The notes under the pieces were generated by a model, which had not been told where the DNA came from, made no database searches, and saw only the letters and a list, made by a program, of their open reading frames with translations. From an uncultured Rubrobacteraceae bacterium (GTDB lineage Bacteria; Actinomycetota; Rubrobacteria; Rubrobacterales; Rubrobacteraceae), in the NCBI GenBank assembly GCA_902805985.1, contig CADCUW010000208.1, forward strand, positions 1 through 17,484: a DNA stretch of 17,484 nt, read 5' to 3'. The position numbers and the translations under genes were made by a program. The stretch's first letter is position 1, and each line of letters starts with the position of its first letter. Positions 6,045 to 15,438 of this stretch are shown piece by piece.

Positions 6045-7748
6045 ATGGAAAACACCGCCTTCAACGTCGAATACAAGCCGCGCACGGGCAGCGAGGCGAT
6101 GTGCGAGGCCCTGCTGGACGAGGGCGTCGAGTACCTCTTCGGGTACCCGGGCGGCGCGATCATGCCTTTCTACGACGCCCTCCCGGACTACCCGCTAAAG
6201 CACGTCCTTACCCGCCACGAGCAGGCGGCCGCCCACGCCGCCGACGGCTACGCCAGGGCGACCAACCGCGTCGGCGTGGTCGTCGCGACGAGCGGGCCTG
6301 GTGCTACGAACCTCGTCACCGGCCTCGCCACCGCGCAGATGGACTCGGTCCCGCTCGTGGCCATAACGGGGCAGGTCGGGCGCCCGGCTTTGGGCAAGGA
6401 CTCGTTCCAGGAGACAAACGTGATGGGCATGACGCTGCCCTTCACGAAGCATTCCTTCCTCGTCGAGGACCCTGACGAGCTCTACCCGACAATGCGTCGG
6501 GCCTTCGAGATCGCACGCAGCGGAAGGCCCGGTCCCGTCCTCGTGGACGTGCCGAAGGACGTCCAGTTCGCGGCCTGCAACGACAACGGCTACCGTCGCT
6601 TGCGCGAGGCGCAGGCGCCCGTAGAGTCGCCGGCGCTGGAGCGGGCCGCGATGCTTATCAGGAACGCGAAGCGGCCCCTCATCCTGGCCGGCCACGGCGT
6701 CACGCTCGCGGGGGCGGAGAAGGAGCTGAGGCTTCTGGCCGAGCGGACCGGCATCCCGGTCGTCACCACCCTGCTCGGCATAAGCGCCTTCCCCGATGAC
6801 CACCCGCTCTACCTCGGGTGGCCCGGGATGCACGGGCAGGCGAGCGTGAACAGGGCCATAGACCGCTCGGACTTGCTGTTCGCCGTCGGGATGCGCTTCG
6901 ACGATAGGATCACGGGCGCCGTCGCCAAGTTCGCCCCGAACGCGAAGGTGATCCACGTGGACGTCGACCCCTCCGAGCTCGGCAAGGTCGTCAGGCCGAC
7001 GATCGGCATCGCCGAGGACGCGAGGGCCGCGATGCGCTCGGTGCTCGGCCACCTCGAAGAGATCCCGGAGGGTGAGGGCTGCTCCGGATGGCGCGAGGAG
7101 CTGGCTAAGAGCCAGGAGCCAGAGAGGCGGCGCGAGGAGAGGGCGCGGGGCGAGTACGGCCCGATCCAGGTGATGGAGGCCATAAAGAAGGTCGCGGGCC
7201 CGGAGATGCGACTCGTCACCGACGTCGGCCAGCACCAGATGTGGGCCGCCCAGTTCTTCGAGTTCACCAAGCACAACAGCCACATCACCAGCGGCGGCCT
7301 CGGCACCATGGGCTTCTCGCTCCCGGCGGCGATGGGCGTTGCCTTCGCCTACCCGGACGAGCCGGTCTGGGTCGTCGCGGGCGACGGCGGCTTCCAGATG
7401 AACATCCAGGAGCTCGCCACGATCCGGGACTTCGGCCTGAACATCAAGGTCGCCGTCCTCAACAACGGCTACCTCGGCATGGTCCGCCAGTGGCAGCAGT
7501 TCTTCCACAACCGCCGCTACTCGGAGACCCCCATAACCGGCCCGAACTACGAGCAACTCACCGCCGCCTACGGCCTCGCCGGGCGCACGGTGCGCGAGGG
7601 CGACGACGTCGAGGGCGCGGTCCGGTGGGCCGAGGAGCAGGACGGGTGCGTGATCCTGGACTTCCACATCGACCCCGAGAAGAACGTCTACCCCATGATC
7701 CCGTCCGGCATGAGCGTCAACGAGATGATCGAGGAAGATGGCGCCTGA
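6045..7748 (+). CDS. ilvB: acetohydroxyacid synthase catalytic subunit (IlvB)
   Basis: IlvB condenses pyruvate with pyruvate or 2-oxobutanoate to give acetolactate or acetohydroxybutyrate, the first common step to Val, Leu and Ile. The 567 residues carry the three-domain ThDP fold: a pyrimidine-binding domain with LTRHEQAAAHAADGYAR (catalytic Glu59) and ATSGPGATNLVTG (81-93); a FAD-site domain (about 195-330) with VGMRFDDRITGAV (281-293); and the ThDP pyrophosphate domain with VVAGDGGFQMN (443-453) and the Asn pair at 473-474. SGGLGTMGFSLPAAMG and GYLGMVRQWQ are AHAS-typical. The start ATG 6045 follows GAGGATGGG. It overlaps the ACT-domain gene by 11 bases. Its expression is probably controlled by the leader upstream. 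Confidence 0.97.
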   Translation: MENTAFNVEYKPRTGSEAMCEALLDEGVEYLFGYPGGAIMPFYDALPDYPLKHVLTRHEQAAAHAADGYARATNRVGVVVATSGPGATNLVTGLATAQMDSVPLVAITGQVGRPALGKDSFQETNVMGMTLPFTKHSFLVEDPDELYPTMRRAFEIARSGRPGPVLVDVPKDVQFAACNDNGYRRLREAQAPVESPALERAAMLIRNAKRPLILAGHGVTLAGAEKELRLLAERTGIPVVTTLLGISAFPDDHPLYLGWPGMHGQASVNRAIDRSDLLFAVGMRFDDRITGAVAKFAPNAKVIHVDVDPSELGKVVRPTIGIAEDARAAMRSVLGHLEEIPEGEGCSGWREELAKSQEPERRREERARGEYGPIQVMEAIKKVAGPEMRLVTDVGQHQMWAAQFFEFTKHNSHITSGGLGTMGFSLPAAMGVAFAYPDEPVWVVAGDGGFQMNIQELATIRDFGLNIKVAVLNNGYLGMVRQWQQFFHNRRYSETPITGPNYEQLTAAYGLAGRTVREGDDVEGAVRWAEEQDGCVILDFHIDPEKNVYPMIPSGMSVNEMIEEDGA

Positions 7749-8358
7749 GGCTACGGGCACGGCGTCCAGCACCGTCAGCGTCCGCCTGGCCGCCGGTATC
7801 CTCGCCCTCAACCGCTTCATGATGACCCTCCAGAACAAACGCATGCCCGTCGTCGACATAAAGGTGGACGCGAACGCCCAGGGCACGGGCATCGAGCTCG
7901 GCTTCGACTGCCCGGAGGAATCCGCCCGCCGCTACGCGGTGCTGCTCGAGAACATGGAGGATGTGGAGGAGCTCCACTTCGCAGCGACCGCGCCGGAGGA
8001 CCGGAGCGACTCTTCCATGGACTACGACGGGCGACGGTTCCGTTCGGTCGAGAACTCGGAGACCGGCGAGGTCGGGCCGGAGACCGTGTTCGCTTACAGG
8101 CAGGACGGCAACGTCGTCAGCGCGACCTACGAGGGCGGCGGCGTCCGGTCCGGCGTCCTGATCGCCACCGCGGACGGCGAGGGCAACCTCGACGCCAGGT
8201 ACGGGCACGTAAACGCCTCCGGCGGGCTGATGACCGGCGAGTGCCGCACGAAGCCCGAGGTATTGCCGGATGGACGCCTCAGGTTGCGCGAAGAGTGGCG
8301 GTGGACCTCGGGGGATGGGTCTTCCGGCCGGTCCGTCGTCGAAGAGATAGGAGACTGA
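7738..8358 (+). CDS. IlvM-like ACT domain fused to an 'NAGS-like' domain; putative AHAS regulatory subunit
   Basis: This 206-residue protein occupies the place of the AHAS small subunit, overlapping ilvB by 11 bases and ending 1 base before ilvC. Residues about 10-84 align by eye with the ACT domain of E. coli Ilv[21 protein letters not shown], then a helix and [20 protein letters not shown], ending VEELHF. An ACT subunit would activate IlvB and carry valine feedback. The usual IlvN second half is absent. Instead residues 94-204 ([20 protein letters not shown], later [18 protein letters not shown] and [11 protein letters not shown]) match a family of about 110 residues that I know as a stand-alone protein commonly labelled N-acetylglutamate synthase, without a visible GNAT acetyl-CoA motif. 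Its function is unproven. Linker 85-93 is short and polar. The fold and role of the second domain are inference; the fusion itself is seen as one uninterrupted frame. Confidence 0.85.
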
Positions 8359-8359
8359 T

Positions 8360-9382
8360 ATGGCCCGCGTGTACCGCGAAGGCGACATAGGAAACGAGAT
8401 CACGGGCAGAAAGATCGCGGTCCTCGGCTACGGCAGCCAGGGCCACGCCCACGCCCTCAACCTGAAGGAATCCGGCTGCGACGTCACGGTCGGCCTCTAC
8501 GAGGGCTCGAAGAGCTGGCCGAAGGCCGAGTCAGACGGCCTCGCGGTCATGACCATCGCCGACGCCGCGCGCCACGCCGACGTGGTGATGATGCTGCTGC
8601 CGGACGAGCGCCAGCCGGCGGTCTTCGAGGCCGAGGTCAGGGAGAACTTGTCCGAGGGCGACCTGATGCTCTTCGCCCACGGCTTCAACATCCACTTCAA
8701 CCAGATCGTCGTCCCTCCCGAGGTGGACCTCGGCCTCGTCGCCCCCAAGGGTCCCGGCCACGTGCTGCGCCGGATGTACGTGGAGGGCAAGGGCATGCCC
8801 TCGCTCTTCGCCGTCCAGAACGACGCGAGTGGTGCCGCGCGCGACGTCGTCCTCTCCTACGCCCGGGGCATCGGCAGCGGTCGGGCCGGCATCATCGAGA
8901 CGACCTTCGCCGAGGAGACCGAGACGGACCTCTTCGGGGAGCAGGCCGTGCTTTGCGGCGGGCTCTCCGCGCTCTTGACGGCCGGGTTCGAGACGCTGGT
9001 CGAGGCCGGGTACCAGCCGGAGCTCGCCTACTACGAGTGCGTCAACGAGCTGAAGTTGATCGTCGACCTCATCTACGAGGGCGGGTTGGCCGGGATGCGG
9101 TACTCGATCTCGAACACCGCCGAGTACGGCGACTACACGGCGGGGCCGAAGATCGTGGACGACGCCGTAAAGACCCGGATGCGCGAGATACTTACGGACA
9201 TCCAGACGGGCAAGTGGGCCAAGGAGTGGGTGCTCGAGAACCAGGCAGGAGGATCGAGCTTCCTCGCCATGCGCCGCCGCCAGGCCAATATGCAGGTCGA
9301 GAAGGTCGGCCAGGAGCTCAGGGCGCTCGCCGCCGAGGGCGCGGAAGCGCCGGCCGCGAGCCCGGCGGGAGGTACGAACTGA
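8360..9382 (+). CDS. ilvC: ketol-acid reductoisomerase, class I (IlvC)
   Basis: IlvC isomerises and reduces acetolactate or acetohydroxybutyrate to the dihydroxy acid, using NAD(P)H and Mg2+. The 340-residue length is the short class I form. The Rossmann loop [17 protein letters not shown] begins at residue 23, and the cofactor-specificity loop reads GLYEGSKSW (45-53), with Ser residues usual for NADPH but Tyr where many homologues have Arg. FAHGFNIHF supplies His107. Mg2+ ligands are Asp190 and Glu194 in TETDLFGEQ, and Glu226 and Glu230 in [17 protein letters not shown]. The tail after about 320 is Ala/Gly-rich and unconserved. AGGAG (8349-8353) lies 6 bases before the ATG. It is translated between the ACT protein and ilvE, which starts at its stop codon. 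Confidence 0.97.
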
Positions 9383-10519: not shown

Positions 10520-12061
10520 ATGCGTCGAGTAGAGATCTTCGACACGACCCTTCGCGACGGCGAGCAGTCGCCGGGCATCTCCCTCTCGGTCGAGGAGAAG
10601 GTTGAGATAGCCCGCCAGCTCGCCCGCCTGGAGGTCGACGTCATAGAGGCGGGCTTCCCCATTACCTCGGAGGGTGACTTCGAGTCGGTCTCCAGGATCG
10701 CCGCCGAGGTCAAGGGCCCGCGAATCGCCGGCCTCGCCCGCCTCCACGAGGAGGACATACGCCGCGCCTGGGAGGCGGTCCAGTGGTCCGAGAGGCCCCG
10801 CATCCACACGTTCGTCGGCACGAGCGACCTGCACATCGAGCACCAGATGCGCTCGAACCGTGGGGACATCCTCAAGCGGGCGGGCGAGGCCGTTCAGTTC
10901 GCCAAGGGCCTCTGCCCGAACGTCGAGTTCTCCCCGATGGACGCGACGCGGACGGATATAGGTTTTCTCTCCGAGGTCGTCGCCGCGGCGGTCGAGGCCG
11001 GGGCGGACGTCGTCAACATCGCCGACACCGTCGGCTACACGACGCCGGTCGAGTTCGCCCATTTCCTGAAGGAGCTTCAGGAGAGAGTCCCGAAGCTCAA
11101 GGAGCGGGTCCTCTCGGTCCACTGCCACGACGATCTCGGGATGGCGGTCGCGAACTCGCTGGCCGGGGTCGAGGTCGGCGCCGGGCAGGTCGAGGTGGCC
11201 GTCAACGGCATCGGGGAGCGGGCCGGGAACGCGAGCCTCGAGGAGGTCGTGATGGCGCTCGCCACACGCGGCGACTTCTACGGCGTCGAGGTCGGCGTCG
11301 AGACGAAGCAGCTCGCCAACACGTCACGCCTCGTCTCGAACATGACCGGCTACGAGGTGCCGCCGAACAAGGCCATCGTGGGCAGGAACGCCTTTTTGCA
11401 CGAGTCCGGCATCCACCAGGACGGCGTCCTCAAGGACCGGCGCACCTTCGAGATCATGACGAAAGAAGATATCGGCCTGGAAGGCACGAACATCTTCCTC
11501 GGCAAGCACTCGGGCCGCCACGCCCTCAAGGACGCCCTCGAGGAGCTCGGCTACTTCGTCGATGGCGAGGTCCTCAAGCGCGCCTTCGTCCGCTTCAAGG
11601 AGATAGCCGACCACAAAAAGACCGTCACGGCGGCCGACCTCGAGGCGATAGCCGCCGACGAGGTCGGCTCCTTCGAGGGCAAGTACGTCCTCGACTCCTT
11701 CAGGGTCGTCGCCGCGACCGGCCGCCAGAGCCGGGCCGCCGTGAGGATCTCGCACGCCGAGCAGGGCACCTTCGAGGCCGAGGCCGAGGGCGAGGGCCCC
11801 GTGGACGCCGTCTTCCGCGCCGTGGACGCCGCCACCAACATCAAGGGACGGTTGACGGACTTCCGCATAGACGCCGTTACGGGCGGCAAGGACGCCCTCG
11901 GCGAGGTCCGGGTCTCGGTCGAGTTCGAGGGCAACGAGTACGGCGGCCGGGGCCTGAGCCAGGACGTCGTGGAGGCGGCGGCCCGCGCCTACGTGCGGGC
12001 GGCTAACGTGTACTCCGCCGGGCGGGTGAAGTCGGAGTGGGAAGCCCCGGTAGCGCCGTAG
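10520..12061 (+). CDS. leuA: 2-isopropylmalate synthase (LeuA)
   Basis: LeuA condenses acetyl-CoA with 2-oxoisovalerate, the committed step of leucine synthesis. The 513 residues are the standard bacterial type I length. The TIM barrel starts [13 protein letters not shown] (7-19) with metal ligand Asp13, [14 protein letters not shown] (199-212) gives His201 and His203, and [15 protein letters not shown] (229-243) gives the Asn ligand. KHSGRHAL and a C-terminal LeuA_dimer domain (about 375-510) are present, so leucine feedback inhibition is expected. The ATG follows TAGGAGGAAC at ideal spacing, the strongest ribosome site in the cluster, consistent with an independent start of translation after its own leader. 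It overlaps the next gene by 25 bases. Confidence 0.96.
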
Positions 12062-12810
12062 CGAACGCGGGGTGGGACGTCTGCGGGCCGTTCCCCGGCT
12101 ACCGTCGCCTCGACGGCCCGGTCCCCCTCCTCCACGCCCCGCGTCTCGCGGCGGAGGCGCGCAAGGTGCGGGAGTACCTGACGCGGGGCTCCGAGGCCCT
12201 CGCCAGCATCCTGATGGCAGGGCCGCCGATACTCTCGGCCCTCCTCGTTGCCGGCGAGGACTGGAGCGAGACGCCACGCGGAAACGAGCGCCCGTACCCG
12301 CCGGGGCTTCCGTACTTTACGCGCTCCGTCGAGCCCCCGGCGCTCGTGCTCCCGGAGAGGCTGTCTAAGGTCTTCCATCCCCAAACCGACGCGCTCCTGC
12401 CGCTAACCGTCTGGCACGAGCTGGCGCACGCCTTCCTGCTGGACGGGGAGGTCGTGAGGATGCCGTCGTGGCTGGGAGAGCTCGTGCCGCAGGCGGCGTC
12501 GGTGGCGGTCGCCCGGAGGGCCGGGCTGCCGCTGGAGGAGCATCTCGGCCTCGTCGACGAGGACCCGGGGTTCAAGATCCGGGATTTCCGAGGTCGGGCG
12601 GGCGCGGAGGAGCAGATGGCGTTTCAGAACCTCCTGCTTCTCCTCGGCGCGGCGGCGCTTGAGGAGTTCGGGGAGGACTCTCTCGGGCGTCTCTTCCGGG
12701 CGCTGTGGGACGAGAGGGACGTGGTCGGGGAGGCGCGGGCCGGGGAGTTGCTCGCAGGCGCTTTGGGGCCGGGAGGACAGGAGTGGCTCCGGTCGAGGCC
12801 GGAGTTCTAG
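12037..12810 (+). CDS. gluzincin-like HExxH putative metallopeptidase inside the leu operon
   Basis: I do not recognise this 257-residue protein as a named family. It contains HELAHAFL (His127, Glu128, His131), the zinc-binding HExxH, followed by MPSWLGELVPQAA. The latter resembles the WLxEG(x)A element of gluzincins, making Glu148 a candidate third ligand 20 residues after the catalytic Glu. The C-terminal third is helical and Leu/Ala-rich (LLLLLGAAALEEFGEDSLG). No signal peptide or membrane segment is clear, so it is likely cytosolic. The start is GTG 12037, overlapping leuA by 25 bases; the ribosome site is weak, suggesting coupled translation. Its stop is 10 bases before leuB. It is not a biosynthetic enzyme of the pathway, and its role there is unknown. 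Confidence 0.78.
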   Translation: MGSPGSAVANAGWDVCGPFPGYRRLDGPVPLLHAPRLAAEARKVREYLTRGSEALASILMAGPPILSALLVAGEDWSETPRGNERPYPPGLPYFTRSVEPPALVLPERLSKVFHPQTDALLPLTVWHELAHAFLLDGEVVRMPSWLGELVPQAASVAVARRAGLPLEEHLGLVDEDPGFKIRDFRGRAGAEEQMAFQNLLLLLGAAALEEFGEDSLGRLFRALWDERDVVGEARAGELLAGALGPGGQEWLRSRPEF

Positions 12811-12820
12811 GAGGAATATC

Positions 12821-13888
12821 ATGCGCGACTCTTTCGACATACTACTGCTACCGGGCGACGGCATAGGCCCTGAGGTGATCGGGGCCGCTAGACGCGTGAT
12901 AGACGCCGCGGCGGAGCACTTCGGCGTCGAGATCCGCTACGAAGAACGCAAGATAGGGGGGGTGGCGATCCGGGACGAGGGCGAGCCCGTCTCGGACGAG
13001 ACGCTTGAGGCGGCCCGGGCTTCGGACTCCGTCCTGCTCGGGGCGGTCGGGCACCCTGACTTCGACGACGCGCCCGTAAGACCGGAAGCTGGGTTGCTCA
13101 AACTCAGGAAGCACCTCGGGGCGTTCGCGAACTTGCGGCCCGTAGCGGCGATTCCGGCGTTGCTCGACGCGTCGCCGCTGAAGAAGGAGATCGTGTCGGG
13201 GGTGGACGTCCTGATCGTGCGCGAGCTTACCGGCGGCGCGTACTTCGGCGAGAAGGAGGAGGGCGAGGAGCGGGCGAGCGACCTCTCCGTCTATACCAGG
13301 GAGGAGATAGACCGGGTGGCCCGCGTCGCCTTCGACGCCGCCAAGCGTCGCAAGCGCCGCGTGACGAGCGTGGACAAGGCGAACGTGATGGCGACCGGCC
13401 GCCTGTGGCGGAAGGTCGTCACCGAGGTCGCCAAAGGCTACCCGGACGTCGAGCTCGACCACGTGCTGGTGGACGCGGCGGCGATGCACCTCGTCAGGGA
13501 GCCCAGACGGTTCGACGTGATGCTGACCGAGAACCTCTTCGGGGACATCCTCTCCGACGAGGCGGCGATGCTCCCCGGTTCGATGGGGATGCTCCCTAGC
13601 GCTTCTCTAGGGGAGCCCGGTTCCCCCGGCATCTTCGAGCCCGTGCACGGCTCCGCGCCGGACATCGCCGGGCAGGGCAAGGCGAACCCTTACGCCGCGA
13701 TCCTCTCTGCGGCGATGATGTTCCGCCACTCTTTAGGCCGCCCGGACGTTGCGGAGGCGATAGAGCAGGGCGTCTCGGTGGCGCTTGAGGCCCACTTTCT
13801 GACCGCCGACCTCGGCGGTAGCAAGACGACGGAAGGGGTGGCCGGGGCCGTCGGCCGGTGGGTCGGGGCCGGGGAGGGCGTGGCATGA
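12821..13888 (+). CDS. leuB: 3-isopropylmalate dehydrogenase (LeuB)
   Basis: LeuB oxidatively decarboxylates 3-isopropylmalate with NAD+, and the same reaction type acts on 3-methylmalate in the citramalate route. The 355 residues carry LLLPGDGIGPEV (8-19), VRELTGGAYFGEK with the family Tyr, VDKANVM with the catalytic Lys, the metal-binding TENLFGDILSDEAAMLPGSM, and the nucleotide-binding GIFEPVHGSAPDIAGQGKANP. His-Gly-Ser-Ala-Pro-Asp-Ile in this last motif is typical of NAD-dependent LeuB. I start at ATG 12821, just after TAGGAGGA; an upstream extension in this frame overlaps the metallopeptidase gene and lacks similarity. It overlaps cimA by 4 bases (ATGA). Confidence 0.96.
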   Translation: MRDSFDILLLPGDGIGPEVIGAARRVIDAAAEHFGVEIRYEERKIGGVAIRDEGEPVSDETLEAARASDSVLLGAVGHPDFDDAPVRPEAGLLKLRKHLGAFANLRPVAAIPALLDASPLKKEIVSGVDVLIVRELTGGAYFGEKEEGEERASDLSVYTREEIDRVARVAFDAAKRRKRRVTSVDKANVMATGRLWRKVVTEVAKGYPDVELDHVLVDAAAMHLVREPRRFDVMLTENLFGDILSDEAAMLPGSMGMLPSASLGEPGSPGIFEPVHGSAPDIAGQGKANPYAAILSAAMMFRHSLGRPDVAEAIEQGVSVALEAHFLTADLGGSKTTEGVAGAVGRWVGAGEGVA

Positions 13889-15438
13889 GCATAAGGCTCT
13901 TCGACACGACTCTGAGGGATGGGACGCAACGCGAGGGCGTCAGCCTGACGACGGAGGACAAGATCCGGATAGCCAAGGAGCTTGACTCTTTGGGCCTCCA
14001 CTACATAGAGGCGGGCTTCCCGGCCTCAAACCCCAAGGACCTCGAGTTCTTCGAGAACTTCGACGCCTCGGGGCTTGCGAACGCGAAGCTCGTCGCCTTC
14101 ACGCGGGCGCGGCGCCCGAACGGCCGGGCGGACGAGGACCCGGCGGTGACGCTCCTCCCCTCCCTCACGGCCCCCGTCGCCTGCATCGTCGCCAAGAGCT
14201 GGAAGCTGCACGTCGAGAAGGTCCTCAGGACCACGCCCGAGGAGAACATCGAGTCCGTGAGGGACACGGTCTCCTACCTCGTGGACGCCGGAAAAGAGGT
14301 CCTCTTCGACGCCGAGCACTTTTTCGACGGCTTCAGGGACGACCCCGACCACGCGCTCACGGTCCTGCGGGCGGCGGCTGAGGCCGGCGCGACGACGCTC
14401 GTCCTCTGCGACACCAACGGCGGCACGCTCCCGACGGAGCTCAAGGCCGTAGTCGCCAGGACCGTCAGGGAGTTTCCGGACGTCGAGGTCGGCATCCACA
14501 CCCACAACGACGCCGGGTGCGGGGTGGCGAACGCCTTGGCGGCCGTCGAGGCCGGGGCGACCCACGTGCAGGGGACCGTCAACGGCGTCGGGGAGCGGAC
14601 CGGCAACTGCGACCTCGTCACCACCATCGCCAATTTACAGCTAAAGATGGGCCTCAAGGTCGTCGAGGACGAGGGGCTGAAGCGGCTCACGGGGGTCTCC
14701 AACTACGTCTCAGAGCTAATGAACCTGACACCGGACACGCACAGGCCCTACGTCGGGAGAAGCGCCTTCGCCCACAAGGGCGGCCTGCACGTGGACGGCA
14801 TAAGCAAGGACCCGGCGACCTACGAGCACGTAGCACCCGAGGTCGTCGGCAACGTCCGCCGGACGCCGGTCGGGGAACTCTCCGGCAAGAACTCCATAAA
14901 GGCGAAGGCCGAGGAGCTGGGCCTGGACGCCGGGGACGCCGGCGAGATCCTCTCGGCCATCAAGAGGCGCGAGTACGAGGGCTACCACTACGAGGCCGCC
15001 GACGCCTCTTTAGCGCTCCTGATCGGGCGCACATCCGGCGAGGACCGGCCACTCTTCGAGTTAGAGACGTTCAGGATCATCTCCGAGAAACGCGCCGACG
15101 GCCGCACGACCACCGAGGCCACGATAAAGCTCTTCGTAAGGGGCCAGAGGGTGATCTCCACCGCCGAGGGCAACGGTCCCGTCAACGCGCTAGACAAGGC
15201 CTTGCGTGAAGCCATCGGCCCCCACTACCCCGAGCTTTCGGAGATCCACCTCTCGAACTACAAGGTCCGTATCCTCGACGAGCACCGCGCGACGGCCGCC
15301 ACGACCCGCGTCCTCATAGACTCGACCGACGGCAAGCGCGTCTGGGGAGCGGTGGGCGTAGGCGAGAACATCATCGAGGCGAGCTGGCAGGCGCTCGTGG
15401 ACGGCCTGGAGTACGGCGTGAACGGGCCGAAGGGTTAG
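13885..15438 (+). CDS. cimA: (R)-citramalate synthase (CimA)
   Basis: CimA condenses acetyl-CoA and pyruvate to citramalate, opening the threonine-independent route to 2-oxobutanoate and isoleucine. The 517 residues differ from the LeuA in this window: [17 protein letters not shown] (5-21) has TQREG instead of EQSPG, HTHNDAGCGVAN replaces [12 protein letters not shown], and GERTGNCDLVTTIANLQL replaces [11 protein letters not shown]. These features, plus CIVAKSWKLHVEKVL and FFDGFRDDPDHAL, are typical of the long CimA family. A C-terminal LeuA_dimer domain (about 390-510) suggests allosteric control by isoleucine. The start is ATG 13885 within the leuB stop (ATGA); a GTG at 13858 is less likely. 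It ends the plus-strand cluster; no convincing terminator is seen in 15439-15494. Confidence 0.92.
   Translation: MSIRLFDTTLRDGTQREGVSLTTEDKIRIAKELDSLGLHYIEAGFPASNPKDLEFFENFDASGLANAKLVAFTRARRPNGRADEDPAVTLLPSLTAPVACIVAKSWKLHVEKVLRTTPEENIESVRDTVSYLVDAGKEVLFDAEHFFDGFRDDPDHALTVLRAAAEAGATTLVLCDTNGGTLPTELKAVVARTVREFPDVEVGIHTHNDAGCGVANALAAVEAGATHVQGTVNGVGERTGNCDLVTTIANLQLKMGLKVVEDEGLKRLTGVSNYVSELMNLTPDTHRPYVGRSAFAHKGGLHVDGISKDPATYEHVAPEVVGNVRRTPVGELSGKNSIKAKAEELGLDAGDAGEILSAIKRREYEGYHYEAADASLALLIGRTSGEDRPLFELETFRIISEKRADGRTTTEATIKLFVRGQRVISTAEGNGPVNALDKALREAIGPHYPELSEIHLSNYKVRILDEHRATAATTRVLIDSTDGKRVWGAVGVGENIIEASWQALVDGLEYGVNGPKG

Follow-up and report, generated by a model that had tools for sequence, protein, structure and literature searches.

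The window analyzed here, a stretch of 17,484 nucleotides from an uncultured Rubrobacteraceae bacterium (GenBank assembly GCA_902805985.1, contig CADCUW010000208.1), contains an open reading frame of 206 codons between ilvB and ilvC, the genes for the catalytic subunit of AHAS and for ketol-acid reductoisomerase (Table 1). The frame shares 11 bases with ilvB and ends in a stop codon one base before the ATG of ilvC, which confirms the gene arrangement described in the original prediction. The ilvB gene is the only copy over the TIGR00118 cut-off in this genome (G000), a second match lying below the cut-off, and 3' of ilvC follow an aminotransferase class IV gene (in the position of ilvE), leuA, leuB and a citramalate synthase gene. 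The latter (13858-15438, plus strand; TIGR00977, 660 bits) is located after leuB and suggests that isoleucine is made via citramalate. Between leuA and leuB, an ORF of 257 amino acids (12037-12810, plus strand) carries a HELAH motif, was matched by neither Pfam nor NCBIfam at E 1e-5, and possibly encodes a metallopeptidase-like protein of the leucine operon. An Rfam scan of the window yielded no match at gathering scores.

Table 1. Features of the ilvB-ilvC region (positions in the window; residues are those of the fusion protein).
Feature	Position	Strand	Evidence or remarks
ilvB, AHAS catalytic subunit, 567 aa	6045..7748	+	TIGR00118, 675 bits (cut-off 538)
Fusion ORF, 206 aa, ATG to TGA	7738-8358	+	ilvB-X-ilvC slot
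ACT domain, residues 9-82, putative AHAS-activating half	7762..7983	+	
Linker, residues 83-94	7984..8019	+	pLDDT <50 at residues 85-91; dN/dS 0.48-1.31 (residues 84-95)
Predicted avidin-like eight-stranded beta-barrel, PF26421, residues 95-206, strands 100-203	8020..8355	+	
ilvC, ketol-acid reductoisomerase	8360..9382	+	NF004017, 515 bits; over KARI cut-offs

The 206-residue product was recognized neither whole nor as halves by Pfam and NCBIfam, a single match being at chance level (E 0.17). Structure prediction, also outlined in the original prediction, resolved the protein into an ACT domain (beta-alpha-beta-beta-alpha-beta at residues 10-82) and a barrel of eight strands, joined by a linker predicted with low confidence. 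Since the two-domain model has a pTM of 0.56, the relative arrangement of ACT domain and barrel is undefined.

A match to the fusion protein was found in 36 of 39 genomes of the order Rubrobacterales, at full length in only four, all of one genus (the window's own, G000, and G020, G021 and G024), and in all four the frame is open throughout. The ACT-barrel architecture is also present in about 130 of the 243 database proteins listed (125 by motif and five by PF26421, the window's own entry included). This recurrence in genomes and database proteins, brought out by the survey of relatives envisaged in the original prediction, indicates that the fusion is neither due to chance nor a local artefact and rules out the assembly error considered there; together with the predicted folds it bears out the central claim that the slot of the AHAS small subunit holds an ACT domain with an unrelated domain joined to it. 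The three genomes in which no match was found (G005, G031 and G035) gave no match to ilvB either and may therefore be incomplete at this locus.

The 37 loci in these 36 genomes all retain the ACT half but differ in their tails: 26 encode ACT with a short C-terminal part, six ACT only, four the barrel, and one, in a genome of the same genus as the barrel genomes (G018), a GLOD5-like VOC domain. Both ilvB and ilvC flank the ACT loci except at contig ends, with ilvC adjoining the ACT gene in 36 of the 37 and none found in the examined stretch of the last (G032). The VOC tail is also found in six database proteins (P0231-P0235 and P0237). In these ACT-VOC fusions of Rubrobacter the ACT half is closely related to that of the barrel fusion, and the G018 gene occupies the same operon slot. 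The closest solved relatives of the VOC tail are 3ey8/3ey7, 3huh/3hnq and GLOD5 itself (3zw5; E 1.6e-42 for 3ey8 and 1.9e-36 for 3zw5), all NCBIfam matches of the ACT-VOC proteins to other VOC groups being far below cut-off. Another protein, P0236, ends in an apparent frameshift and constitutes weak evidence. As for the short C-terminal part, the comparison with IlvN drew on 13 of 30 loci recovered by pattern and 25 of the 26 ACT+C loci. Over the whole length E was 1e-4 (probability 58), and the short part alone scored 24.5 (probability 24) against the IlvN C-domain, compared with 15.4 for the best of 40 column-shuffled controls and 9.7 for the reversed one. This is modest evidence that the short C-part may be a diverged remnant of an ancestral IlvN-type architecture.

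AHAS catalyzes the first step in the synthesis of valine, leucine and isoleucine, is subject to feedback control and is a major target of herbicides; its catalytic subunit IlvB is bound and activated by IlvM, IlvN and IlvH. The predicted fold of the ACT half (residues 9-82) has AHAS regulatory subunits among its best solved-structure matches, along with other ACT proteins. In profile comparisons with hhalign, an ACT-half profile from 36 of the 37 loci reached probabilities of 0.2 for IlvM, 0.8 for E. coli IlvN, 4.1 for IlvH and 8.1 for actinomycetotal IlvN, so the alignment by eye of the first 84 residues with E. coli IlvM finds no support in the sequence. As the window protein also gave no match to TIGR00119, and Pfam was silent on its ACT half, we describe the fusion as a diverged relative that would work like an AHAS subunit and do not file it as a member of TIGR00119. 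What supports its assignment is the fold, the genomic context and the homologous ACT genes at the other ilvB-X-ilvC loci. Like IlvN and IlvH (TIGR00119; 2fgc, 6u9d, 6u9h) and the ACT-only IlvM, it has an ACT fold, adjoins the biosynthetic ilvB and was found in one copy; unlike IlvN and IlvH, it is too diverged for TIGR00119 and carries the barrel where the C-domain of IlvN would stand. Bacterial AHAS small subunits possess either one ACT-like subdomain (AHAS I and II) or two (AHAS III), as described in a published account (PMC5727371). We consider it likely that the ACT half is the AHAS activator.

A separate ilvN, which the original prediction had named as an objection, was not found in the fusion genomes by ACT, Rubrobacterales ACT+C or TIGR00119 profile searches. 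The four barrel genomes, like G018, contain one ACT match each. The Rubrobacterales ACT+C profile gave one match in each of seven genomes (E up to 1) and recovered the gene at near full length in the controls G022 and G023. No genome among the 39 of the order had a TIGR00119 match over the cut-off (a single one, in G013, fell below it with 21 bits), compared with 46 of 60 in a sample of the phylum, five of these 60 being Rubrobacterales. The ilvB gene was found over the TIGR00118 cut-off in 31 of the 39 genomes, exactly once in each and adjoining the ACT gene. The completeness of G000, G021 and G024 is 88.6%, 100% and 97%, respectively. In 20 of the 39 genomes there is a further TPP enzyme that scores under the TIGR00118 cut-off (e.g., G000:C619) and lies away from the ACT matches.

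Residues 95-206 are annotated as PF26421, which we take to be named "avidin-like domain" in Pfam, on the database copy of the protein (a precomputed annotation); our own Pfam scan of the fusion gave no PF26421 match, probably because the copy scanned did not contain that model. Predicted alone, the domain reached a pLDDT of 95.9 and its best solved-structure matches are avidins, and it shows the avidin-type barrel fold by a measure on which designed beta-barrels score nearly as high. Although the predicted fold is alike, no sequence relation to avidin or streptavidin was detectable: profile comparison with streptavidin gave a probability of 1.1, and the barrel part matched nothing in Pfam, avidin PF01382 included. 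The PF01382 profile matched in none of 296 genomes, the 14 controls among them, so that this negative carries no weight. Homology to avidins by sequence was rejected on the profile comparison, and a resemblance to streptavidin motifs seen by eye was dropped for the same reason. By sequence, the barrel profile matched among solved structures YwiB (1r0u, E 0.052, positions 24-103 of 116) and an Rhs protein (E 1.5), which may be regarded as leads at most, the Bacillus-type YwiB possibly being a distant relative. One of the alignments used (A1, 18 rows) gave a single match to solved structures, with E 8.4, which we took as chance; A1 and A2 (27 rows) were hand-chosen, and A3 comprised 64 rows.

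Compared with the stand-alone PF26421 proteins of Bacteroidota, Acidobacteriota and others, the fused barrel is the same domain (55-74% identity, 26 aligned) and keeps the family-invariant residues found in them. The stand-alone proteins are mostly single-domain and of 110-135 amino acids, whereas the domain in the window is attached as a tail to an ACT protein of the AHAS type. Among 34 barrel positions tabulated in 38 fused rows, 32 are invariant (one row being gapped at seven) and two, 101 and 106, vary. Pairwise dN/dS between the four barrel genomes (six pairs) was 0.12-0.27 for the barrel (residues 96-206) and 0.26-0.60 for the ACT half (see Table 1 for the linker). The low values of the barrel and its invariant positions indicate that it is maintained and not decaying.

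Public databases name some relatives of the fusion, e.g., P0122 and P0123, "n-acetylglutamate synthase", and the original prediction accordingly spoke of a "NAGS-like" second domain. An N-acetylglutamate synthase in the C-terminal part is scarcely credible, since the part is predicted as an eight-stranded barrel with avidins as best matches, no acetyltransferase (GNAT), amino-acid-kinase or ArgJ fold was matched in it by Pfam or predicted-structure comparison, and ArgJ is encoded over its cut-off elsewhere in all four barrel-fusion genomes (G000, G020, G021 and G024), away from the fusion. P0123 (Rubrobacter tropicus, 113 aa) is identical to the barrel part of P0081 except for the first residue, and its start codon in the DNA is an ATA inside an open ACT frame; its label thus hides a fusion (L032, in G024). 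PF26421 proteins are therefore without fold-level support as N-acetylglutamate synthases, which bears on the public label. The entry P0123 begins at codon 94, which is an ATG in the window, and a restart of translation in the linker could yield a separate barrel protein. However, of the four barrel genomes only the window's own has ATG at this codon, the others having GCA, GTA and ATA. The internal start is thus not conserved, and the frame is open throughout in all of them; an internal start at this codon was rejected, and two products seem very improbable.

The distribution of tails on closely related ACT halves points to exchange. In a tree of the C-terminal part of IlvB together with IlvC (34 of the 37 loci, without G029, the second copy of G030, and G032), the VOC genome G018 falls among the barrel genomes, with ultrafast bootstrap values of 100 for all five, 94 for G024+G018+G021+G000, 94 for G018+G021+G000 and 85 for G000+G021. 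The ACT halves of the VOC proteins G018 and P0231 share 78 of 80 residues with the barrel protein P0076; that of the VOC protein P0237 shares 75 of 80 with the barrel protein P0093 but only 66 of 80 with G018, and P0237 and G018 are 95% identical in the VOC part (128 of 135) where their ACT halves reach only 82%. On the ACT-half tree at least two tail-type changes are needed. Forcing the ACT halves of the VOC rows into one clade gave an AU p of 0.040, a marginal value from 82 residues, a quick tree of 41 of 119 rows (all seven VOC rows, the genomes and those 30 barrel rows that lay closest to a VOC row) and a simple model, with groups named after an earlier tree. The contigs involved measure about 1 kb (P0076), about 3 kb (P0237), 8 kb (P0093) and 42 kb (P0234), and the shortness of the first two makes a chimera possible in either.

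The fused barrels form one group in the barrel tree (support 0.82), together with P0132, a fragment of 90 amino acids labelled stand-alone, a grouping that would be consistent with one capture. The 33 rows labelled fused include P0121-P0123 (113-119 aa), which were taken as shortened calls, as demonstrated for P0123 alone. In quick trees of barrel and ACT parts (35 of the 37 loci with 27 barrel and four VOC proteins), the ACT halves that bear the barrel in P0125 and P0126 lie outside the main group; with the barrel on two distant ACT backgrounds, one capture followed by descent in a single clade is insufficient by itself. Judged from these sequence comparisons, tail exchange by recombination appears supported but not proven.

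Our preferred reading, to which we give a probability of roughly 0.55, is that the fusion represents an AHAS regulatory subunit that has diverged and in which an accessory module, probably one that binds small molecules and acts on AHAS, has taken the place of the C-domain. The ACT half would most likely bind and activate IlvB, as IlvM, IlvN and IlvH do. An ancestral IlvN-type C-domain might have diverged and become short in most Rubrobacterales and been lost from six loci, and in one Rubrobacter clade a captured avidin-like barrel would have replaced it; in some members the GLOD5-like VOC domain would then have taken the place of the barrel, most simply by recombination across the linker. The barrel occupies the place of the C-domain as an accessory module and is a maintained functional module, most likely one that binds a small molecule and acts on the activity or assembly of AHAS, but that it both binds a ligand and regulates the enzyme we propose only tentatively. 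The presence of two unrelated domains at one place could also reflect tolerance instead of regulation. An extension of our preferred reading, in which the C-terminal position is a recombination-exchangeable socket for unrelated ligand-binding domains and branched-chain amino acid flux would answer to a metabolite that no known AHAS senses, we consider unlikely.

The main rival holds that ACT alone serves as the AHAS subunit, that the C-terminal slot is dispensable, and that barrel and VOC domain perform unrelated jobs, gaining from operon expression and tethering. The ACT-only genes at six of the 37 loci, the occupation of the slot by two unrelated folds, the retention in the barrel of the invariant residues of the stand-alone family, and the VOC relatives (45-69% identity) encoded at other places in 23 further genomes of the order are all in line with it, but the barrel fusion is long-lasting, of nearly fixed length, spread over many lineages and under purifying selection. 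A search of the four barrel-fusion genomes matched no barrel gene standing alone, a result compatible with both readings. On this evidence we hold the passenger role to be possible, if somewhat unlikely. It has also to be considered that both tails might act on a reactive keto- or hydroxy-acid, such as acetolactate, diacetyl or methylglyoxal, by binding or converting it at the step from AHAS to IlvC, given the glyoxalase-like relatives of the VOC tail and the slot between the two acetolactate-handling enzymes; however, the barrel matched no catalytic family in Pfam or NCBIfam and ACT-only lineages manage without any such module, which makes this handling improbable.

Returning to the diverged regulatory subunit, a normally conserved AHAS regulator appears to have exchangeable parts in the Rubrobacter group. 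Among the matches listed in the part of the literature covered, there was no report of a barrel- or VOC-fused AHAS subunit. The closely conserved ACT half with four kinds of tail forms a natural series in which the role of the C-domain can be tested, and the tail variants represent ready-made chimeras for engineering AHAS control.

The surroundings of stand-alone PF26421 genes were surveyed at the best 80 of 359 loci, with the target ORF recovered in 61 (the fusion locus L066 included), and contain no recurrent branched-chain synthesis gene. Recurrent neighbors are genes of the peptidyl-arginine-deiminase family, PPIase, pyruvate kinase, phosphofructokinase and others, which by eye seem lineage-bound. 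In another genus of the family (L194 in G036, L195 in G032), PF26421 gene fragments are located between glycerate kinase-like and trehalose phosphatase-like genes, as judged by eye. In three large-genome Actinomycetota of one genus (L186, L190 and L193) a PF26421 relative lies beside a thiO glycine oxidase-like gene, accompanied in L186, L190 or L193, at two of these loci, by an FAD oxidoreductase-like gene, both likewise assigned by eye.
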